DNA of 64,000 bases. It comes from Gillisia lutea. Lineage in GTDB: Bacteria; Bacteroidota; Bacteroidia; Flavobacteriales; Flavobacteriaceae. A program made the position numbers and the translations under genes. Each line of letters starts with the position of its first letter. Position 1 is the first letter of the stretch. Below, one piece after another: positions 2,581-52,904 of the stretch. The stretch covers positions 124,001-188,000 of the forward strand of contig NZ_JAKGTH010000009.1 of NCBI RefSeq assembly GCF_021568705.1. The letters run 5' to 3'. Under the pieces are notes generated by a model. The model saw nothing but the letters and a program-made list of their open reading frames with translations, was not told the origin of the DNA and did no database searches.

Positions 2581-2742
2581 AGCAGATAAATATAAATTTC
2601 TTTATATGAAATTAAATATGATGAGCTTAAAGCTTTCTTTCTTCAAAATTAGAAAGTTGCCGAAACCGTTTTCGTATAAAAAGTATTTTTTTTGTACGAT
2701 TATTAAATATAAATTATAAATTAGCTTTATTCAATTAGAACA

Positions 2743-2820
2743 ATGAGCAATTTAATTACTTGGAACGCATTCTATTATTTTTATTTCTTTTATAGAGATA
2801 GAATCGGGAGCGCTGTGTAA
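2743..2820 (+). CDS. Phe/Tyr-rich leader peptide of the aromatic amino acid operon
   Basis: A 25-codon open frame, ATG at 2743 and TAA at 2818-2820, whose centre reads F-Y-Y-F-Y-F-F-Y, eight consecutive Phe or Tyr codons (residues 10-17), with a Trp codon just before. It sits 22 bases upstream of a perfect terminator hairpin and 72 bases upstream of pheA, the first gene of a Phe/Tyr biosynthesis operon. This is the arrangement of ribosome-mediated attenuators such as E. coli pheL. The codons after the run (Arg-Ile-Gly) contain AATCGGGA (2802-2809), which can pair with TCCTGATT (2848-2855) in the terminator's first arm. The peptide itself probably has no function after synthesis. The sequence pattern is seen directly; the mechanism is inference. 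Confidence 0.8.
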   Translation: MSNLITWNAFYYFYFFYRDRIGSAV

Positions 2821-2878
2821 TTAAAATAATGAATTATATATAAAAGGTCCTGATTTTCTAAATCAGGACCTTTTTTTT
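2769..2878 (+). promoter_or_regulatory. Phe/Tyr transcription attenuator (alternative RNA structures)
   Basis: Four segments can form the classical alternatives. Segment 1 ATTCTAT (2769-2775, in the leader) pairs with segment 2 ATAGAAT (2798-2804). Segment 2, as AATCGGGA (2802-2809), pairs with segment 3 TCCTGATT (2848-2855) with a single G-U pair, forming an antiterminator. Segment 3 pairs with segment 4 as the terminator stem 2842-2874. A ribosome stalled on the Phe/Tyr run (2770-2793) would cover segment 1 and free segment 2, allowing read-through into pheA. Pairings were found by eye and no folding energies were computed. Confidence 0.7.
2842..2878 (+). terminator. Intrinsic terminator of the pheA leader (attenuator)
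   Basis: A perfect 15-bp stem, AAAAGGTCCTGATTT (2842-2856) with its complement (2860-2874), a three-base loop TCT, and a run of T to 2878. It ends 14 bases before the pheA start codon. A terminator directly in front of a gene and behind a leader peptide makes sense only if it is conditional. Confidence 0.9.
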
Positions 2879-2892
2879 ATTTCAATTTTAAA

Positions 2893-3717
2893 ATGGACAA
2901 AATTATAGGAATTCAGGGAGTACAAGGTTCTTTTCATCATTTGGTGGCACAGGAATATTTTGGGCCAGATGTGAACATTCAGGAATGCATGACGTTTCAT
3001 GAACTGGTAAATAGACTTGTTGCGGGAGAATCTCAGGAAGCAGTTATGGCTATAGAAAATTCTATTGCAGGGTCTATTCTTCCTAATTATGCCTTGATTG
3101 ATGAGCATAATTTAAAAGTCGTGGGGGAGCATTACATTCCTATTAATATGAATTTGATGGCACTTCCAGGTCAGGACATTGCCGCTATTAAGAAGGTATA
3201 TTCTCACCCGATGGCATTACTTCAGTGTAAAGAATTCTTTAAAGGTTATCCTCATATTAAATTAATTGAAGATGAAGATACTGCCGAGGTTGCCAGACGA
3301 ATTTCTCAGAAGCAATCGAAAGGAGTAGCCGCGGTTGCAAGTAAAACCGCCGCAGAGATCTTTGGATTAGAAATACTTGCAGAGAGTATTCATACCAAAA
3401 AAAGCAACGCTACCCGATTCCTCATTATAAGCACCAAGCAAAAAGAACCGAATGGCGTTAAAATAGACAAGGCTTCTTTAAAATTTGAACTGGAGAGTAA
3501 ACGAGGAAGCCTTGTTTCAGTATTAAATATAATTAGAGATTTTAACTTGGATATGACCAAGATCCAATCCATGCCTATTATTGAAACTCCCTGGAAATAT
3601 TCTTTTTTCGTGGATGTGACCTTTGAAGATTATAAAGAGTTTTTAAAGGCCATGGAAATCTTGGAAGTGATGACAGAACAATTAAAAATATTAGGAACCT
3701 ACAAAAATAGCTTATAA
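2893..3717 (+). CDS. pheA: Prephenate dehydratase
   Basis: Converts prephenate to phenylpyruvate, the committed step to phenylalanine, in the cytoplasm. The prephenate dehydratase domain covers about residues 4-180, with the ENS motif at 55-57 and the catalytic Thr-Arg-Phe at 174-176. An ACT domain follows at about 195-270, with GSLVSVL and a KIQSMP segment in place of the usual KIESRP, which probably binds Phe for feedback control. It is monofunctional (274 residues, no chorismate mutase domain); the mutase is fused to the last gene of the operon. The stop codon overlaps the next start (TAATG), implying translational coupling. Expression is probably controlled by the leader at 2743-2878. Confidence 0.93.
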   Translation: MDKIIGIQGVQGSFHHLVAQEYFGPDVNIQECMTFHELVNRLVAGESQEAVMAIENSIAGSILPNYALIDEHNLKVVGEHYIPINMNLMALPGQDIAAIKKVYSHPMALLQCKEFFKGYPHIKLIEDEDTAEVARRISQKQSKGVAAVASKTAAEIFGLEILAESIHTKKSNATRFLIISTKQKEPNGVKIDKASLKFELESKRGSLVSVLNIIRDFNLDMTKIQSMPIIETPWKYSFFVDVTFEDYKEFLKAMEILEVMTEQLKILGTYKNSL

Positions 3718-4862
3718 TGATTCAGGCCAATAGATTAAACCAGGTGCAGGAATACTATTTCTCTTCGAAGTTGAGAGAAGTGCGTGCGCTGGAGGCTCAG
3801 GGGAAACCCATTATAAATTTAGGAATTGGTAGTCCGGATCTGCCTCCACCACCTCAGGTTGTGGAAGGTTTAAATAAGGCGCTTACAAACTCGGCAGCAC
3901 ACCAGTATCAGCCATATAAGGGCACTACCGATTTTCGAAATGCCATTCAGGAATTTTACAAATCTCATTATAATGTAGCGCTGGATCCTGAAAATGAGAT
4001 CTTGCCTTTAATGGGAAGCAAAGAAGGAATTCTGCATATTTCTATGGCTTTTTTGAATGAAGGAGATGAGGTATTAATCCCAAATCCCGGATATCCAACT
4101 TATTCTTCAGTAACAAAATTGGTAGGTGCCACAGCTGTTAATTACGATCTGGATGAAGCCGGGAATTGGCTGCCTGATCTTGAAAGCTTGGGGAAAAGAG
4201 ACCTAAGTAAGGTAAAGCTGATGTGGGTTAATTATCCGCATATGCCAACCGGGGCCTCGGCTACAGATAAGGTGTTTAAAGACCTGGTTGCTTTTGCGAA
4301 AGAGCATCATATCTTAATTGTTAATGACAACCCTTACAGCTTCATTTTAAATGAACATCCAAAAAGCATTTTAGAAGTAGAAGGAGCTAAAGATGTAGTG
4401 TTAGAACTTAATTCACTTAGCAAGAGCTTTAATATGGCGGGTTGGCGTATTGGAATGTTATGCGGAAATGAAAAGTTTTTAAGCAATGTATTGAAAGTGA
4501 AATCTAATATGGATAGTGGAATGTTCTATCCTTTACAGGCGGGGGCTGCCATAGCTTTAAGGTTGCCAAAAGAGTGGTTTAATTCTTTAAATGAAGTGTA
4601 TTCCACAAGAAAAGAATTGGTTTTAGAACTGGCTGCAGCTTTAAATTGCAAGCCTGCACCGGAACAAACAGGATTGTTCGTTTGGGCAAAAGTACCGGTG
4701 GGAACAACTTCCGAGGTATTTGTAGATCAATTATTACATACACATGATTTGTTTGCAACTCCGGGATTCATATTTGGAAGTCAGGGGGAAGGATATATTC
4801 GCTTTTCACTTTGTACACCCGAAGAAACAATTAAAGAAGCAATAAAAAGAGTTACAAAATGA
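3717..4862 (+). CDS. Class I/II pyridoxal-phosphate aminotransferase (aromatic or aspartate type)
   Basis: Fold type I aminotransferase of 381 residues, positioned to transaminate phenylpyruvate and hydroxyphenylpyruvate (or prephenate) in the Phe/Tyr operon. The Schiff-base lysine is in SLSKSFN (Lys236). The PLP-binding segment is D-N-P-Y (204-207). The usual N-P-T-G motif reads M-P-T-G (176-179), so the conserved Asn that contacts the cofactor oxygen is replaced by Met. The start overlaps the pheA stop by one base and the stop overlaps the tyrA start by four. Substrate choice between aromatic and other amino acids cannot be read from sequence; the operon makes an aromatic role likely. Confidence 0.88.
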   Translation: MIQANRLNQVQEYYFSSKLREVRALEAQGKPIINLGIGSPDLPPPPQVVEGLNKALTNSAAHQYQPYKGTTDFRNAIQEFYKSHYNVALDPENEILPLMGSKEGILHISMAFLNEGDEVLIPNPGYPTYSSVTKLVGATAVNYDLDEAGNWLPDLESLGKRDLSKVKLMWVNYPHMPTGASATDKVFKDLVAFAKEHHILIVNDNPYSFILNEHPKSILEVEGAKDVVLELNSLSKSFNMAGWRIGMLCGNEKFLSNVLKVKSNMDSGMFYPLQAGAAIALRLPKEWFNSLNEVYSTRKELVLELAAALNCKPAPEQTGLFVWAKVPVGTTSEVFVDQLLHTHDLFATPGFIFGSQGEGYIRFSLCTPEETIKEAIKRVTK

Positions 4863-5707
4863 GAGTTCATATAATTGGAGTAGGATTAATAGGGGGCTCA
4901 TTTGCTTTGGATATTCGAAATGCATATCCAGATGTACAATTAGTGGGAGTAGATACAGAACCTCTTCATTTGGAAAAAGCCCTTAGTTTGGGGATCATTG
5001 ATGAAATAGCCGATCTTGATGATGTTTCTACAAGCGATATTGCTATAGTAGCAGTGCCTGTAGATGTGAGTATCCACTTAGTTAAAACGATACTGGATAA
5101 AATTGGGGAGCAAACTTTGGTTATAGATACAGGTTCTACAAAAGGAAAGCTTTGCGAAGCGGTTATTCAGCATGAAAAACGAAGAAATTTCCTGGCGGCT
5201 CATCCAATTGCCGGTACAGAGTTCTCAGGGCCGGAAGCAGCAATTTCCAATCTTTATAGAAATAAGACCAACATTATTTGTGAGGTGGAGAAAACAGCTT
5301 TTAAATTTCAGGAGCGAGCATTAGATATTTTTCAGCGTTTGGGAATGAGAATCTGTTATATGGATGCAAAATCTCATGACAGGCATATTGCCTATGTGTC
5401 GCATCTTTCTCACATAAGCTCCTTTATGCTAGGGAAAACTGTGTTGGAAAAGGAAAAGAATGAGCGTAATATCTTTGATCTCGCAGGAAGCGGATTTGCT
5501 TCAACAGTACGACTTGCTAAAAGTTCGCCGGCAATGTGGTCACCTATTTTTGAGCAGAATAAAGAAAACGTAGTGGAAATATTAGATGAATACATTCATA
5601 ATTTAACGAACTTCAAGAAGCTTATAGAAGAGGATGATTTCAAAGAGGTTTATAAGGAGATGGAGAGAACTAACCACATTAAAGCAATATTAAACGGAAT
5701 TAACTAA
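4859..5707 (+). CDS. tyrA: Prephenate dehydrogenase
   Basis: NAD(P)-dependent oxidative decarboxylation of prephenate to 4-hydroxyphenylpyruvate, the tyrosine branch. The N-terminal Rossmann motif G-V-G-L-I-G-G lies at residues 7-13, with an acidic residue ending strand 2 (GVDTE). The substrate segment AAHPIAGTEFSGP holds the conserved His at 115. At 282 residues it is the short form without chorismate mutase or ACT domain. ATGA overlap with the preceding aminotransferase indicates coupling. Having tyrA and pheA in one transcript fits a leader that senses both Phe and Tyr. Confidence 0.92.
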   Translation: MRVHIIGVGLIGGSFALDIRNAYPDVQLVGVDTEPLHLEKALSLGIIDEIADLDDVSTSDIAIVAVPVDVSIHLVKTILDKIGEQTLVIDTGSTKGKLCEAVIQHEKRRNFLAAHPIAGTEFSGPEAAISNLYRNKTNIICEVEKTAFKFQERALDIFQRLGMRICYMDAKSHDRHIAYVSHLSHISSFMLGKTVLEKEKNERNIFDLAGSGFASTVRLAKSSPAMWSPIFEQNKENVVEILDEYIHNLTNFKKLIEEDDFKEVYKEMERTNHIKAILNGIN

Positions 5708-5733: not shown

Positions 5734-6816
5734 ATGGAAAATAAGAAAGAATTAGGGGATTGGTTAAAGAAATTCAATTTGGACCACCCATTGGTAATTG
5801 CCGGTCCGTGTAGTGCGGAGACCGAAGAGCAGGTAGTAAAGATCGCCCATCAGCTAAAAGACAGTGATGTAAGTGTGCTTCGTGCAGGAATTTGGAAACC
5901 ACGTACAAGACCCGGTAACTTTGAAGGTGTTGGGGCTTTAGGTTTAAAATGGATGCAGACTGCAAAGGAGGAAACGGGGATGTTAACCACTACCGAAGTT
6001 GCGAATCCTAATCATGTTGAACTGGCTTTAAAACATGATGTAGATATCTTGTGGATTGGGGCAAGAACTACGGTTTCACCATTTATTGTACAAGAGATCG
6101 CAGATGCTCTGAAGGGCACCGATAAAACTGTCTTGGTGAAAAACCCGGTGAATCCAGATCTTTCATTGTGGCTTGGAGCTGTAGAGCGTTTATATACTGC
6201 CGATATTAAGAATTTGGGGGTTATTCACAGAGGGTTTTCAGCATATGAGAAAACTAAATACCGTAATAATCCGGAATGGCAGATCGCTATCGATTTACAA
6301 AATAAATTCCCAGATCTACCATTAATATTAGATCCTTCGCATATTGCAGGAAGAAGAGACCTTATTTTTGACCTAAGTCAGACAGCACTAGATCTAAATT
6401 ACGACGGATTAATGATTGAAACTCATTACGATCCTGATAATGCCTGGAGTGATGCTGCACAGCAAATCACCCCAGCTACTCTTATCCAGATCATGAAAGA
6501 TCTAAAGATTAGAAAAGAAGTAGGGGAGAATGAAGAATTTCAAAATAACCTAAAAAACCTGCGTGCTAAAATTGATATTGCCGATCATCAGCTATTGGAA
6601 ACGCTTTCAAAAAGAATGAAAATTTCAGATGAAATTGGAAAGATCAAAAAGAACCAGAACGTAGCAATCTTACAGACTTCACGTTGGAATGAGATCTTAG
6701 GAAAAATGATTTTAGAGGGAGAACAACAAGGTTTGAGCGAAGAATTCGTTCTAAAGATGTTCAAGGCGATTCATCAGGAATCTATCAATCATCAGAAAAA
6801 GATTATAAGCGAATAG
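5734..6816 (+). CDS. Bifunctional DAHP synthase / chorismate mutase
   Basis: Opens the shikimate pathway by joining phosphoenolpyruvate and erythrose 4-phosphate, and also converts chorismate to prephenate. Residues about 15-260 form the DAHP synthase (KDO8P synthase-like) barrel, with VIAGPCSAET at 21-30, a WKPRTRPGNFEG segment and ILDPSHIAG near the C-terminal end. Residues about 272-355 form a helical AroQ-type chorismate mutase (LRAKIDIADHQLLETLSKRM). The fusion links entry and branch point of the pathway, so feedback through the mutase domain is possible. It is the last gene of the operon and is followed by a terminator at 6841-6874. The pathway genes aroA (13.7 kb) and others lie elsewhere. 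Confidence 0.92.
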   Translation: MENKKELGDWLKKFNLDHPLVIAGPCSAETEEQVVKIAHQLKDSDVSVLRAGIWKPRTRPGNFEGVGALGLKWMQTAKEETGMLTTTEVANPNHVELALKHDVDILWIGARTTVSPFIVQEIADALKGTDKTVLVKNPVNPDLSLWLGAVERLYTADIKNLGVIHRGFSAYEKTKYRNNPEWQIAIDLQNKFPDLPLILDPSHIAGRRDLIFDLSQTALDLNYDGLMIETHYDPDNAWSDAAQQITPATLIQIMKDLKIRKEVGENEEFQNNLKNLRAKIDIADHQLLETLSKRMKISDEIGKIKKNQNVAILQTSRWNEILGKMILEGEQQGLSEEFVLKMFKAIHQESINHQKKIISE

Positions 6817-50717: not shown

Positions 50718-52904
50718 ATGTCTACCTTAAGATTTCAAGCTTTAAAAGAAACCCTGAACCGTAAGCCAGTTCAAATTGATGAAACCCTAAGAAGATCAGA
50801 GCTCTTTGGAAAAAACGTTTTTAACGAAACGGTAATGAGACAATTCCTTACTAAGGAAGCTTACCAAAGTGTCGTTGATGCTAATATCAAGGGAACTAAA
50901 ATTAGCCGTGTAATTGCCGATCATATTTCTACCGGAATGAAAGAATGGGCGATCTCCAAAGGAGTTACTCATTATACTCACTGGTTTCAACCATTAACAG
51001 GTTCAACTGCAGAGAAACACGATGCTTTTTTTGAAACCATTGGCGATGGATTAGCTATTGAAAAATTTGCAGGTAGCCAATTAGTACAACAAGAACCCGA
51101 TGCTTCTAGCTTTCCAAATGGAGGTATAAGAAATACCTTTGAGGCTAGGGGGTACACTGCATGGGATCCAACATCTCCTGCATTTATTTATGGTACAACT
51201 TTATGTATTCCTACGGTATTCGTGTCTTATACCGGAGAGGCCTTAGATTATAAAACTCCTCTATTGCGAGCTTTACAAACGATAGATCAGGCAGCAACCG
51301 ATGTAGCTAAATATTTTGATAAAAATGTTACTAAAGTAACCGCAACCCTTGGTTGGGAGCAGGAATACTTTCTTATAGATTCTGCATTGGCAGCTTCTCG
51401 TCCCGATTTACAATTATCGGGTCGTACCCTTTTAGGTCATTCTCCTGCTAAAGGACAACAGTTGGATGATCATTATTTCGGGTCTATTCCTTCTCGTGTT
51501 CTTTCTTTTATGAGAGATTTAGAGATCGAATCTATGTTATTAGGAATACCTGTGAAAACCCGTCATAATGAAGTGGCTCCAAACCAGTTCGAGTTGGCAC
51601 CTATTTTTGAAGAAGCTAACTTGGCTGTAGATCATAACTCCTTATTAATGGATGTGATGGATAAAGTTGCTGAAAGACATAATTTTAAAGTGCTTTTTCA
51701 TGAAAAACCATTTAAGGGAATTAATGGAAGTGGTAAACATAACAACTGGTCGTTAAGTACAGATACGGGAGTTAATTTATTAGGGCCTGGAAGTACACCA
51801 ATGAAGAACTTGCAGTTTCTTACGTTCTTTATCAACACTATTAAAGCAGTGCATGATAATGAAGAATTGTTAAGAGCTACTATTGCAAGTGCGTCTAACG
51901 ATCATAGATTGGGAGCTAATGAAGCACCACCAGCAATTATTTCTGCCTTTATTGGAAGTCAGTTAACAGCGGTTCTGGATGAGCTTGAAAAAGTTACCGA
52001 TGGAAAACTTTCTCCTCAAGAGAAAACAGACCTTAAACTGAACGTTGTAGGGAAGATTCCTGAAATATTATTAGATAATACAGATAGAAACAGAACTTCT
52101 CCTTTCGCATTTACTGGTAATAAATTTGAATTTAGAGCTGTTGGTTCCACGGCTAACTGTGCGAGCCCAATGACTGTTTTAAATACTATAGTAGCGAAAC
52201 AACTTATAGAATTTAAAAAGAGTGTAGACAGTCTTGTGAAAGACAAAAAAATGAAGAAGGATGATGCCATCTTTAATGTGTTAAGAGAGTATATCAAAAA
52301 ATCTAAGAAAATTCGTTTTGAAGGAGATGGTTACGGTGATGCATGGCAAGAAGAAGCAGCTAAAAGAGGATTAAGTAATAATAAGACAACTCCGTTGGCT
52401 TTACAGGCCCAAGTCTCTAAAAAGGCGATTGCGCTTTTTGAAGAAATGGGAGTAATGAATAAAAGGGAACTTGTAGCAAGACATGAGATCGAGCTGGAAG
52501 ATTATTCTATGCGCATTCAAATTGAAGGACGTATTTTAGGTGATATTGCTCGAAACCATGTAATTCCAACAGCAATTAGATATCAAAATATCTTAATTGA
52601 AAACGTACGTGGACTTAAAGAAATCTTCGAGTCTGATTTTGAAAAACATTCTAAAGAACAGTTGAGCATTATTAAAGAGATATCTAATCATATTGAAAAC
52701 ATTAATGCTGATGTTACCGATATGATTGAACAGCGTAAGAGAGCAAATGTTATTGAAGATGCCGAAAAACGTGCGTTTGCATATTGTGATGATGTGAAAC
52801 CATTCTTCGAAAAGATAAGATACCACTGTGATAAATTAGAGTTATTGGTAGATGATGAGCTTTGGCCATTAACCAAATATAGAGAGCTATTATTCACAAG
52901 ATAA
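50718..52904 (+). CDS. glnN: Glutamine synthetase type III
   Basis: 728-residue GSIII, the form common in Bacteroidetes and about 1.6 times the length of GSI. Assimilates ammonium into glutamate. The N-terminal part (FGKNVFNETVMRQFL; KGVTHYTHWFQPLTG), the ATP-binding region (GSGKHNNWSL) and the active-site NRTSPFAFTG are all present. A long C-terminal helical part (about 590-728) follows. A strong terminator is downstream; regulation by nitrogen is probable from the operator-like repeat. Confidence 0.95.
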   Translation: MSTLRFQALKETLNRKPVQIDETLRRSELFGKNVFNETVMRQFLTKEAYQSVVDANIKGTKISRVIADHISTGMKEWAISKGVTHYTHWFQPLTGSTAEKHDAFFETIGDGLAIEKFAGSQLVQQEPDASSFPNGGIRNTFEARGYTAWDPTSPAFIYGTTLCIPTVFVSYTGEALDYKTPLLRALQTIDQAATDVAKYFDKNVTKVTATLGWEQEYFLIDSALAASRPDLQLSGRTLLGHSPAKGQQLDDHYFGSIPSRVLSFMRDLEIESMLLGIPVKTRHNEVAPNQFELAPIFEEANLAVDHNSLLMDVMDKVAERHNFKVLFHEKPFKGINGSGKHNNWSLSTDTGVNLLGPGSTPMKNLQFLTFFINTIKAVHDNEELLRATIASASNDHRLGANEAPPAIISAFIGSQLTAVLDELEKVTDGKLSPQEKTDLKLNVVGKIPEILLDNTDRNRTSPFAFTGNKFEFRAVGSTANCASPMTVLNTIVAKQLIEFKKSVDSLVKDKKMKKDDAIFNVLREYIKKSKKIRFEGDGYGDAWQEEAAKRGLSNNKTTPLALQAQVSKKAIALFEEMGVMNKRELVARHEIELEDYSMRIQIEGRILGDIARNHVIPTAIRYQNILIENVRGLKEIFESDFEKHSKEQLSIIKEISNHIENINADVTDMIEQRKRANVIEDAEKRAFAYCDDVKPFFEKIRYHCDKLELLVDDELWPLTKYRELLFTR

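Follow-up and report, generated by a model that had tools for sequence, protein, structure and literature searches.

The joint phenylalanine/tyrosine operon of Gillisia lutea is preceded by a short reading frame rich in Phe and Tyr codons, an intrinsic terminator and a competing antiterminator, and we consider it highly probable (at roughly 0.9) that the operon is controlled by a classical ribosome-mediated transcription attenuator. The reading is supported by comparison between genomes, i.e. by a conserved frame, the presence of both amino acids, a conserved terminator and spacing, and the coevolution of the two antiterminator segments. From this pattern we infer translation of the frame, termination in front of pheA, a response to starvation and the sufficiency of Tyr limitation alone. 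The DNA in question is a 64-kb stretch (64,000 nucleotides) of a Flavobacteriaceae genome, the whole of which is referred to below as the window.

Leader frame, pairings and proposed mechanism

An original prediction, made from the letters of the window, had placed a 25-codon frame with eight successive Phe/Tyr codons before a Phe/Tyr operon, and both the sequence and the Pfam assignments bear this out. Codons 10-17 of the leader read F-Y-Y-F-Y-F-F-Y, the operon runs in the order pheA, aminotransferase, tyrA and DAHP synthase/chorismate mutase, and the gene 5' of the leader lies in divergent orientation. The features are the following:

2717..2724, forward strand: probable -7 promoter element TAAATTAG, which we take to be of the flavobacterial TAnnTTTG type
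2743..2820, forward strand: leader peptide gene of 25 codons (ATG at 2743, TAA at 2818-2820), encoding MSNLITWNAFYYFYFFYRDRIGSAV
2761..2763, forward strand: conserved Trp codon 5' of the Phe/Tyr run (TGG in the aligned relatives)
2767..2772, forward strand: segment 1, GCATTC, with its partner at 2808-2813 (87.0% of helix cells paired)
2770..2793, forward strand: regulatory run of eight successive Phe/Tyr codons, assigned from the sequence, family conservation and the footprint model
2779..2803, forward strand: hairpin in which part of the run (2779-2788) pairs with 2794-2803
2802..2809, forward strand: segment 2, the antiterminator strand AATCGGGA, assigned from coevolution and swap tests
2842..2878, forward strand: intrinsic terminator of 15 pairs, AAAAGGTCCTGATTT-TCT-AAATCAGGACCTTTT at 2842-2874, with a T run to 2878
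2848..2855, forward strand: segment 3, TCCTGATT, part of the terminator 5' arm and common to antiterminator and terminator
2893..3717, forward strand: pheA, prephenate dehydratase (PDT; Pfam PF00800, 1.7e-58; ACT domain under its cut-off)
3717..4862, forward strand: class I/II aminotransferase (PF00155)
4859..5707, forward strand: tyrA, prephenate dehydrogenase (PF02153, PF20463; NF006307 over cut-off)
5734..6816, forward strand: DAHP synthase-chorismate mutase fusion (PF00793 and PF01817)

Segments 2 and 3 are complementary with one G-U pair, and the T run of the terminator ends 14 bases before pheA (2893). The terminator at this distance and the antiterminator had both been predicted, and both are present and conserved. 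The region thus combines a short frame rich in codons for the products of the operon, and presumably translated, with a putative terminator before pheA and an antiterminator that competes with it. Transcription would start just 5' of the leader, as the promoter motif suggests. With ample charged tRNA-Phe and tRNA-Tyr the ribosome would reach the stop codon and cover segment 2, upon which the terminator would form and RNA polymerase would halt 5' of pheA. If either charged tRNA were scarce, the ribosome would stall within the Phe/Tyr run and leave segment 2 free to pair with segment 3, which would break the terminator and allow the operon to be transcribed.

The run by itself is within chance, because a control pattern read backward matches twice in the 3.18-Mb genome, just as the eight-codon T[A/T][C/T] run does (its other site being antisense to a 274-codon ORF). 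What goes beyond chance is the position of the run before pheA and a terminator, repeated across relatives. The leader region also folds with a z-score of -5.25, none of 200 shuffles being equally stable. Among 411 shuffled regions the score never exceeded 3 of 10, and in an antisense control 5 of 137 regions scored 4-5 and none scored 6 or more, 18 of these 137 regions being in the wrong orientation at that point. A further scan of the 64-kb window looked for short frames that start with ATG, have the same residue at four of eight codons and have a terminator no more than 90 nt away; it returned two, namely the Phe/Tyr leader and a Lys-rich frame at 52327. The latter comprises 15 codons on the forward strand, is followed by a terminator-like site and is probably due to chance.

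Conservation of the leader and coevolution of its pairings

A scan with the PheA protein yielded 27 named loci, mostly from Gillisia and Salegentibacter, the nearest being from Gillisia; all four operon genes are present and in order in 24 of these 27, and two of the exceptions stop at contig edges. For the family sample 249 genomes were drawn, 228 of which had a pheA match, and 140 of the latter were examined, including 30 weaker matches. A leader was scored where at least five Phe/Tyr residues occurred within ten codons and a terminator was present. On this basis 132 of the 135 distinct upstream regions from the family have a leader with terminator before pheA (the window and the 27 named loci included, and two duplicate records, L031 and L033, taken out beforehand); the regions in which it was not found are L005, which lies at a contig edge, L064 and L126. 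In each of the 132 leaders both Phe and Tyr codons occur at least twice. The pattern is also specific to the frame, since at least six Phe/Tyr in ten codons are found in-frame in 131 of the 132 leaders and in either other frame in none.

Within the family, a leader was also present in 36 of 37 further cases, made up of the 30 weaker matches and seven other loci (the miss being L152). Outside the Flavobacteriaceae, where the loci are the best-scoring PheA matches only, a leader was found in 17 of 36, spread over ten families that share the order, class or phylum. The 53 additional leaders all contain Phe and at least two Tyr codons, i.e. the full set of 185 leaders keeps at least two Tyr codons in addition to Phe. 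Neither leader nor terminator was found upstream of pheA in six loci from one family of 600-kb genomes, and no leader in five loci from a family whose dehydratase is highly divergent. The 600-kb genomes (L181, L182, L184-L186 and L188) belong to the same order and retain pheA, as if the attenuator had been lost with genome reduction. These leaders point to classical attenuation through an interleaved Phe/Tyr run, a pattern conserved through the family and found in at least ten other families.

The signals around the frame recur as well. When three leaders of more than 35 residues were omitted, an element of the TAnnTTTG form was present in 125 of 129 leaders, in 123 cases starting 16-31 nt 5' of the ATG, as compared to 10 of 129 shuffled stretches. 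The leader start has an A at -3 in 107 of 129 cases, and A at this position is reported to promote initiation in Flavobacterium (PMC6847099). The stretch between terminator and pheA is variable, ranging from about 6 to 245 bases among L007, L011, L014, L017 and L061; the added sequence in L007 contains another long inverted repeat.

The pairings were compared in an alignment of 27 sequences, comprising the window and close relatives (L027 was omitted from an initial 28). Of the terminator cells 99.6% are paired, and three of its pairs have changed on both sides; for the antiterminator the figure is 93.1%, and all changes are single-sided. Across the family, the middle pair of the antiterminator is G-C in 59, A-U in 58 and G-U in 5 of 126 loci, and an unpaired A-C in 4 (six of the 132 loci were left out for want of an anchor), so that 122 of 126 are paired in this pooled count versus a shuffle maximum of 103. 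The duplex between a leader's own linker and terminator amounts to -10.9 kcal/mol versus -8.5 (sd 0.18) for permuted partners, a value reached in 0 of 5000 permutations.

Because relatives have a common history, independent pairs on the PheA tree were used in a swap test. It stands in for a count of changes at one antiterminator position (on an 80-row tree), where anchoring at a fixed offset misplaces the segments of distant loci. The test covered 94 rows, 13 of 107 having no usable PDT protein, and pairs less than 1 kcal/mol apart were excluded. In 23 of the 28 independent pairs that differed by at least 1 kcal/mol the own partners were better (p 0.0009), and over 50 random choices of pairs they were favoured in 12-17 of 14-22. 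Segment 2 had been selected as the best complement, and the uninterrupted antiterminator helix comprises just 5-6 pairs in 69 of the 132 loci. The comparisons indicate that antiterminator and terminator coevolve across the family. The original prediction had named a lack of conservation of the small frame or of the AATCGGGA/TCCTGATT pairing in relatives as grounds for refuting it, and it stands on both counts.

The prediction fared less well for a third structure, ATTCTAT (2769-2775) with ATAGAAT (2798-2804), which is present in the window but not conserved: 78.8% of its cells are paired in the 27 sequences versus 80.6% in shuffles. An alternative upstream pairing, GCATTC/GAATGC together with AATTA/TAATT, is paired in 87.5% of cells and has double changes in two pairs; in its segment 1 helix, GCATTC/GAATGC, one pair is doubly changed from G-C to A-U in 4 sequences. 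Conservation of this segment 1:2 pairing, the weaker one among the pairings, is partly supported by the alignment. The hairpin that the run forms with the bases 3' of it is paired in 97.8% of cells of the 27 sequences and may be a by-product of codon conservation, because it has zero double changes.

Spacing and the amino acids that may be sensed

The geometry was modelled for 129 of the 132 leaders (three were left out because their segment 2/3 helix had at most two G-C pairs), with the ribosome edge assumed at 13 nt past the first base of the A-site codon and the antiterminator probability taken just before the terminator 3' arm is transcribed. The distance from the end of the last Phe/Tyr codon to segment 2 is 5-14 nt, and 11 nt in 73 of the 129. 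Under the 13-nt edge a stalled ribosome leaves segment 2 free and a ribosome at the stop codon covers it: the mean antiterminator probability is 0.93 while the A site holds the last Phe/Tyr codon, falls to 0.53 one codon downstream and to 0.03 two codons downstream, and is 0.00 with the ribosome at the stop. The drop implies that the run ends where stalling would cease to help. Without a ribosome the model still prefers the antiterminator (mean 0.65, median 0.82), and default termination in untranslated leader RNA is therefore not predicted. The picture for the E. coli trp operon differs in this respect, as there termination occurs by default in untranslated RNA.

In the footprint model, the competent positions hold at least two Tyr and at least one Phe codon in all 129 leaders, a geometry that would permit the sensing of both amino acids; such dual sensing is likely. 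With a clearly lower probability, a real attenuator might respond to Phe alone, in which case the Tyr codons would be passengers that either serve a U-rich unstructured run or derive from Phe codons through T/A changes. Of 129 leaders, 105 have a Phe codon closest to segment 2, and for the aroR leader of Corynebacterium glutamicum, with its Phe-Tyr-Phe, a response to Phe and none to Tyr has been reported (PMC11802643). Speaking against passengers is that every one of the 185 leaders has two or more Tyr codons, and that two or more are at competent positions in each of the 129 that were modelled.

The genomes that appear unable to make Tyr from prephenate bear on the same point from both sides. 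Among 18 genomes chosen for a short-looking operon or a divergent PheA, 12 have no prephenate dehydrogenase above the Pfam cut-off, which is present in 14 of 14 controls; the 12 are L021 (Salinimicrobium sediminis, genome G436), G006, G076, G141, G078, G036, G067, G056, G011, G133, G098 and G090. Their leaders keep the Tyr codons, as the Phe-only alternative would allow. However, a member of the biopterin-dependent hydroxylase family is encoded in all 18 chosen genomes and hence in all 12, and such an enzyme could, judged by its family, make Tyr from Phe; Tyr sensing would then still make sense without prephenate dehydrogenase. In L021, G006, G076 and G141 a DAHP synthase match starts at most about 220 bases after the end of pheA.

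Sensing of both Phe and Tyr might also be extended to Trp, in that the Trp codon would stall ribosomes too and an operon with the sole DAHP synthase would answer all three aromatic amino acids, an extension that we regard as unlikely. Trp is present in 106 of the 132 family leaders, TGG is invariant in the 27 aligned sequences while the neighbouring codons are more variable, and a stall at the Trp codon frees segment 2 in 102 of 103 modelled leaders. Any upstream stall is competent in the model, so that geometry does not pick out Trp; moreover, a single codon makes a weak sensor and Trp is absent from 53 of the 185 leaders. As to the enzyme, no second DAHP synthase was found in the genome of the window, where the other PF00793 match is a KDO8P synthase, PF01474 has no match, and the operon enzyme is the only DAHP synthase found. 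But 35 of 37 Trp-less genomes likewise have just two PF00793 matches, and since these genomes mostly have no second DAHP synthase the case for Trp sensing is weak. A tie between the Trp codon and a single DAHP synthase found no support in the same count, as two PF00793 matches occur in 42 of 43 Trp-bearing genomes as well; the two were resolved as KDO8P synthase and operon enzyme in the genome of the window, and by position in 68 of 80 genomes. A third and far stronger PF00793 match (2.5e-85) was seen at G044:C59:40580-41305 and might be a second, different kind of DAHP synthase. Should one leader read all three aromatic tRNAs after all, which we think improbable, a single RNA switch would set the flux into the whole aromatic pathway, and in this family, perhaps far beyond, one switch would do the job of the separate attenuators and repressors of E. 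coli.

Readings that dispense with attenuation fare far worse. Reinitiation has been proposed at leader genes, for which Bacteroidetes show a peak at 11-14 bp (PMC4833913), and the short frame might act by translational coupling or reinitiation at pheA without transcription termination; the leader stop, though, lies 72 bases from pheA (up to about 300 in relatives) with the terminator in between, and the arms of that terminator covary, which makes this reading very improbable. The strong local structure might at first sight suggest a metabolite riboswitch, a T-box or the plain terminator of an upstream transcript, a still more remote option given that neither the window region nor any of 12 relatives has a match at the gathering score of an Rfam family, that the upstream neighbour is divergent, and that the reading frame, the run and the spacing are the things conserved.

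Relation to known attenuators and implications

The search against Rfam gave 38 matches in the region at E-values up to 10, all under their gathering scores, in agreement with the prediction that the leader is unlisted. Control codons for more than one pathway amino acid in one leader are familiar from the ilvGMEDA and thr operons of enterobacteria; the leaders described here resemble these in that respect, and concern other amino acids and other operons. The Bacteroid-trp RNA (RF01692) is a Trp leader attenuator, its amino acid and operon being other than here, and it is absent from the 38 matches. It was put forward as a cis-regulatory RNA candidate in Bacteroidetes (PMC2864571).

The closest counterpart by gene is the E. 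coli pheL-pheA system (RF01859, Phe_leader), in which a control-codon leader peptide likewise precedes the prephenate dehydratase gene and pheA is attenuated via Phe-charged tRNA (PMC11802643). The RF01859 model nevertheless gives this leader 19.2 bits against a cut-off of 55. The pheL peptide has control codons for Phe only, as the original prediction had held, whereas at least two Tyr codons are present in all 132 and all 53 leaders found here; and E. coli has tyrA and aroF on the opposite strand, as compared to one operon here. Closer in codon content is the aroR leader of C. glutamicum, which precedes aroF, a DAHP synthase gene (Neshat 2014, via PMC11802643), as this leader too mixes Phe and Tyr codons in one aromatic leader. 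It differs in having just three such codons, before a different operon and in another phylum.

The principle of attenuation in these bacteria is not new, because it has been suggested for Flavobacterium psychrophilum and Bacteroides thetaiotaomicron. In the former, a member of the same family, 'strong clues' for leader-peptide attenuation before amino-acid biosynthesis operons are mentioned in general terms (PMC9723704), and a Phe/Tyr leader may be among those candidates; in the latter, short frames resembling leader peptides are described (PMC7366714). A survey of 2010 presented its own Firmicutes case as, so far as the authors knew, the first leader peptide demonstrated outside Proteobacteria and Actinobacteria (PMC2965389). 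No description of a Phe/Tyr leader in Bacteroidetes was found in the portions of the literature that were searched, a scope that does not extend to the comparative study of Lopatovskaya and colleagues from 2010. What appears to be new is the interleaved Phe/Tyr run within classical attenuation, the principle itself being already known.

The attenuator would provide one clear switch for aromatic amino acid synthesis in bacteria whose gene regulation is little mapped. It would also be a natural and widespread case of two interleaved kinds of control codon, and as such would merit an Rfam family of its own. At a more general level it raises the question whether a mixed run lets either of two tRNAs throw the switch, in the manner of an OR gate, or responds to one tRNA alone, as reported for Corynebacterium.
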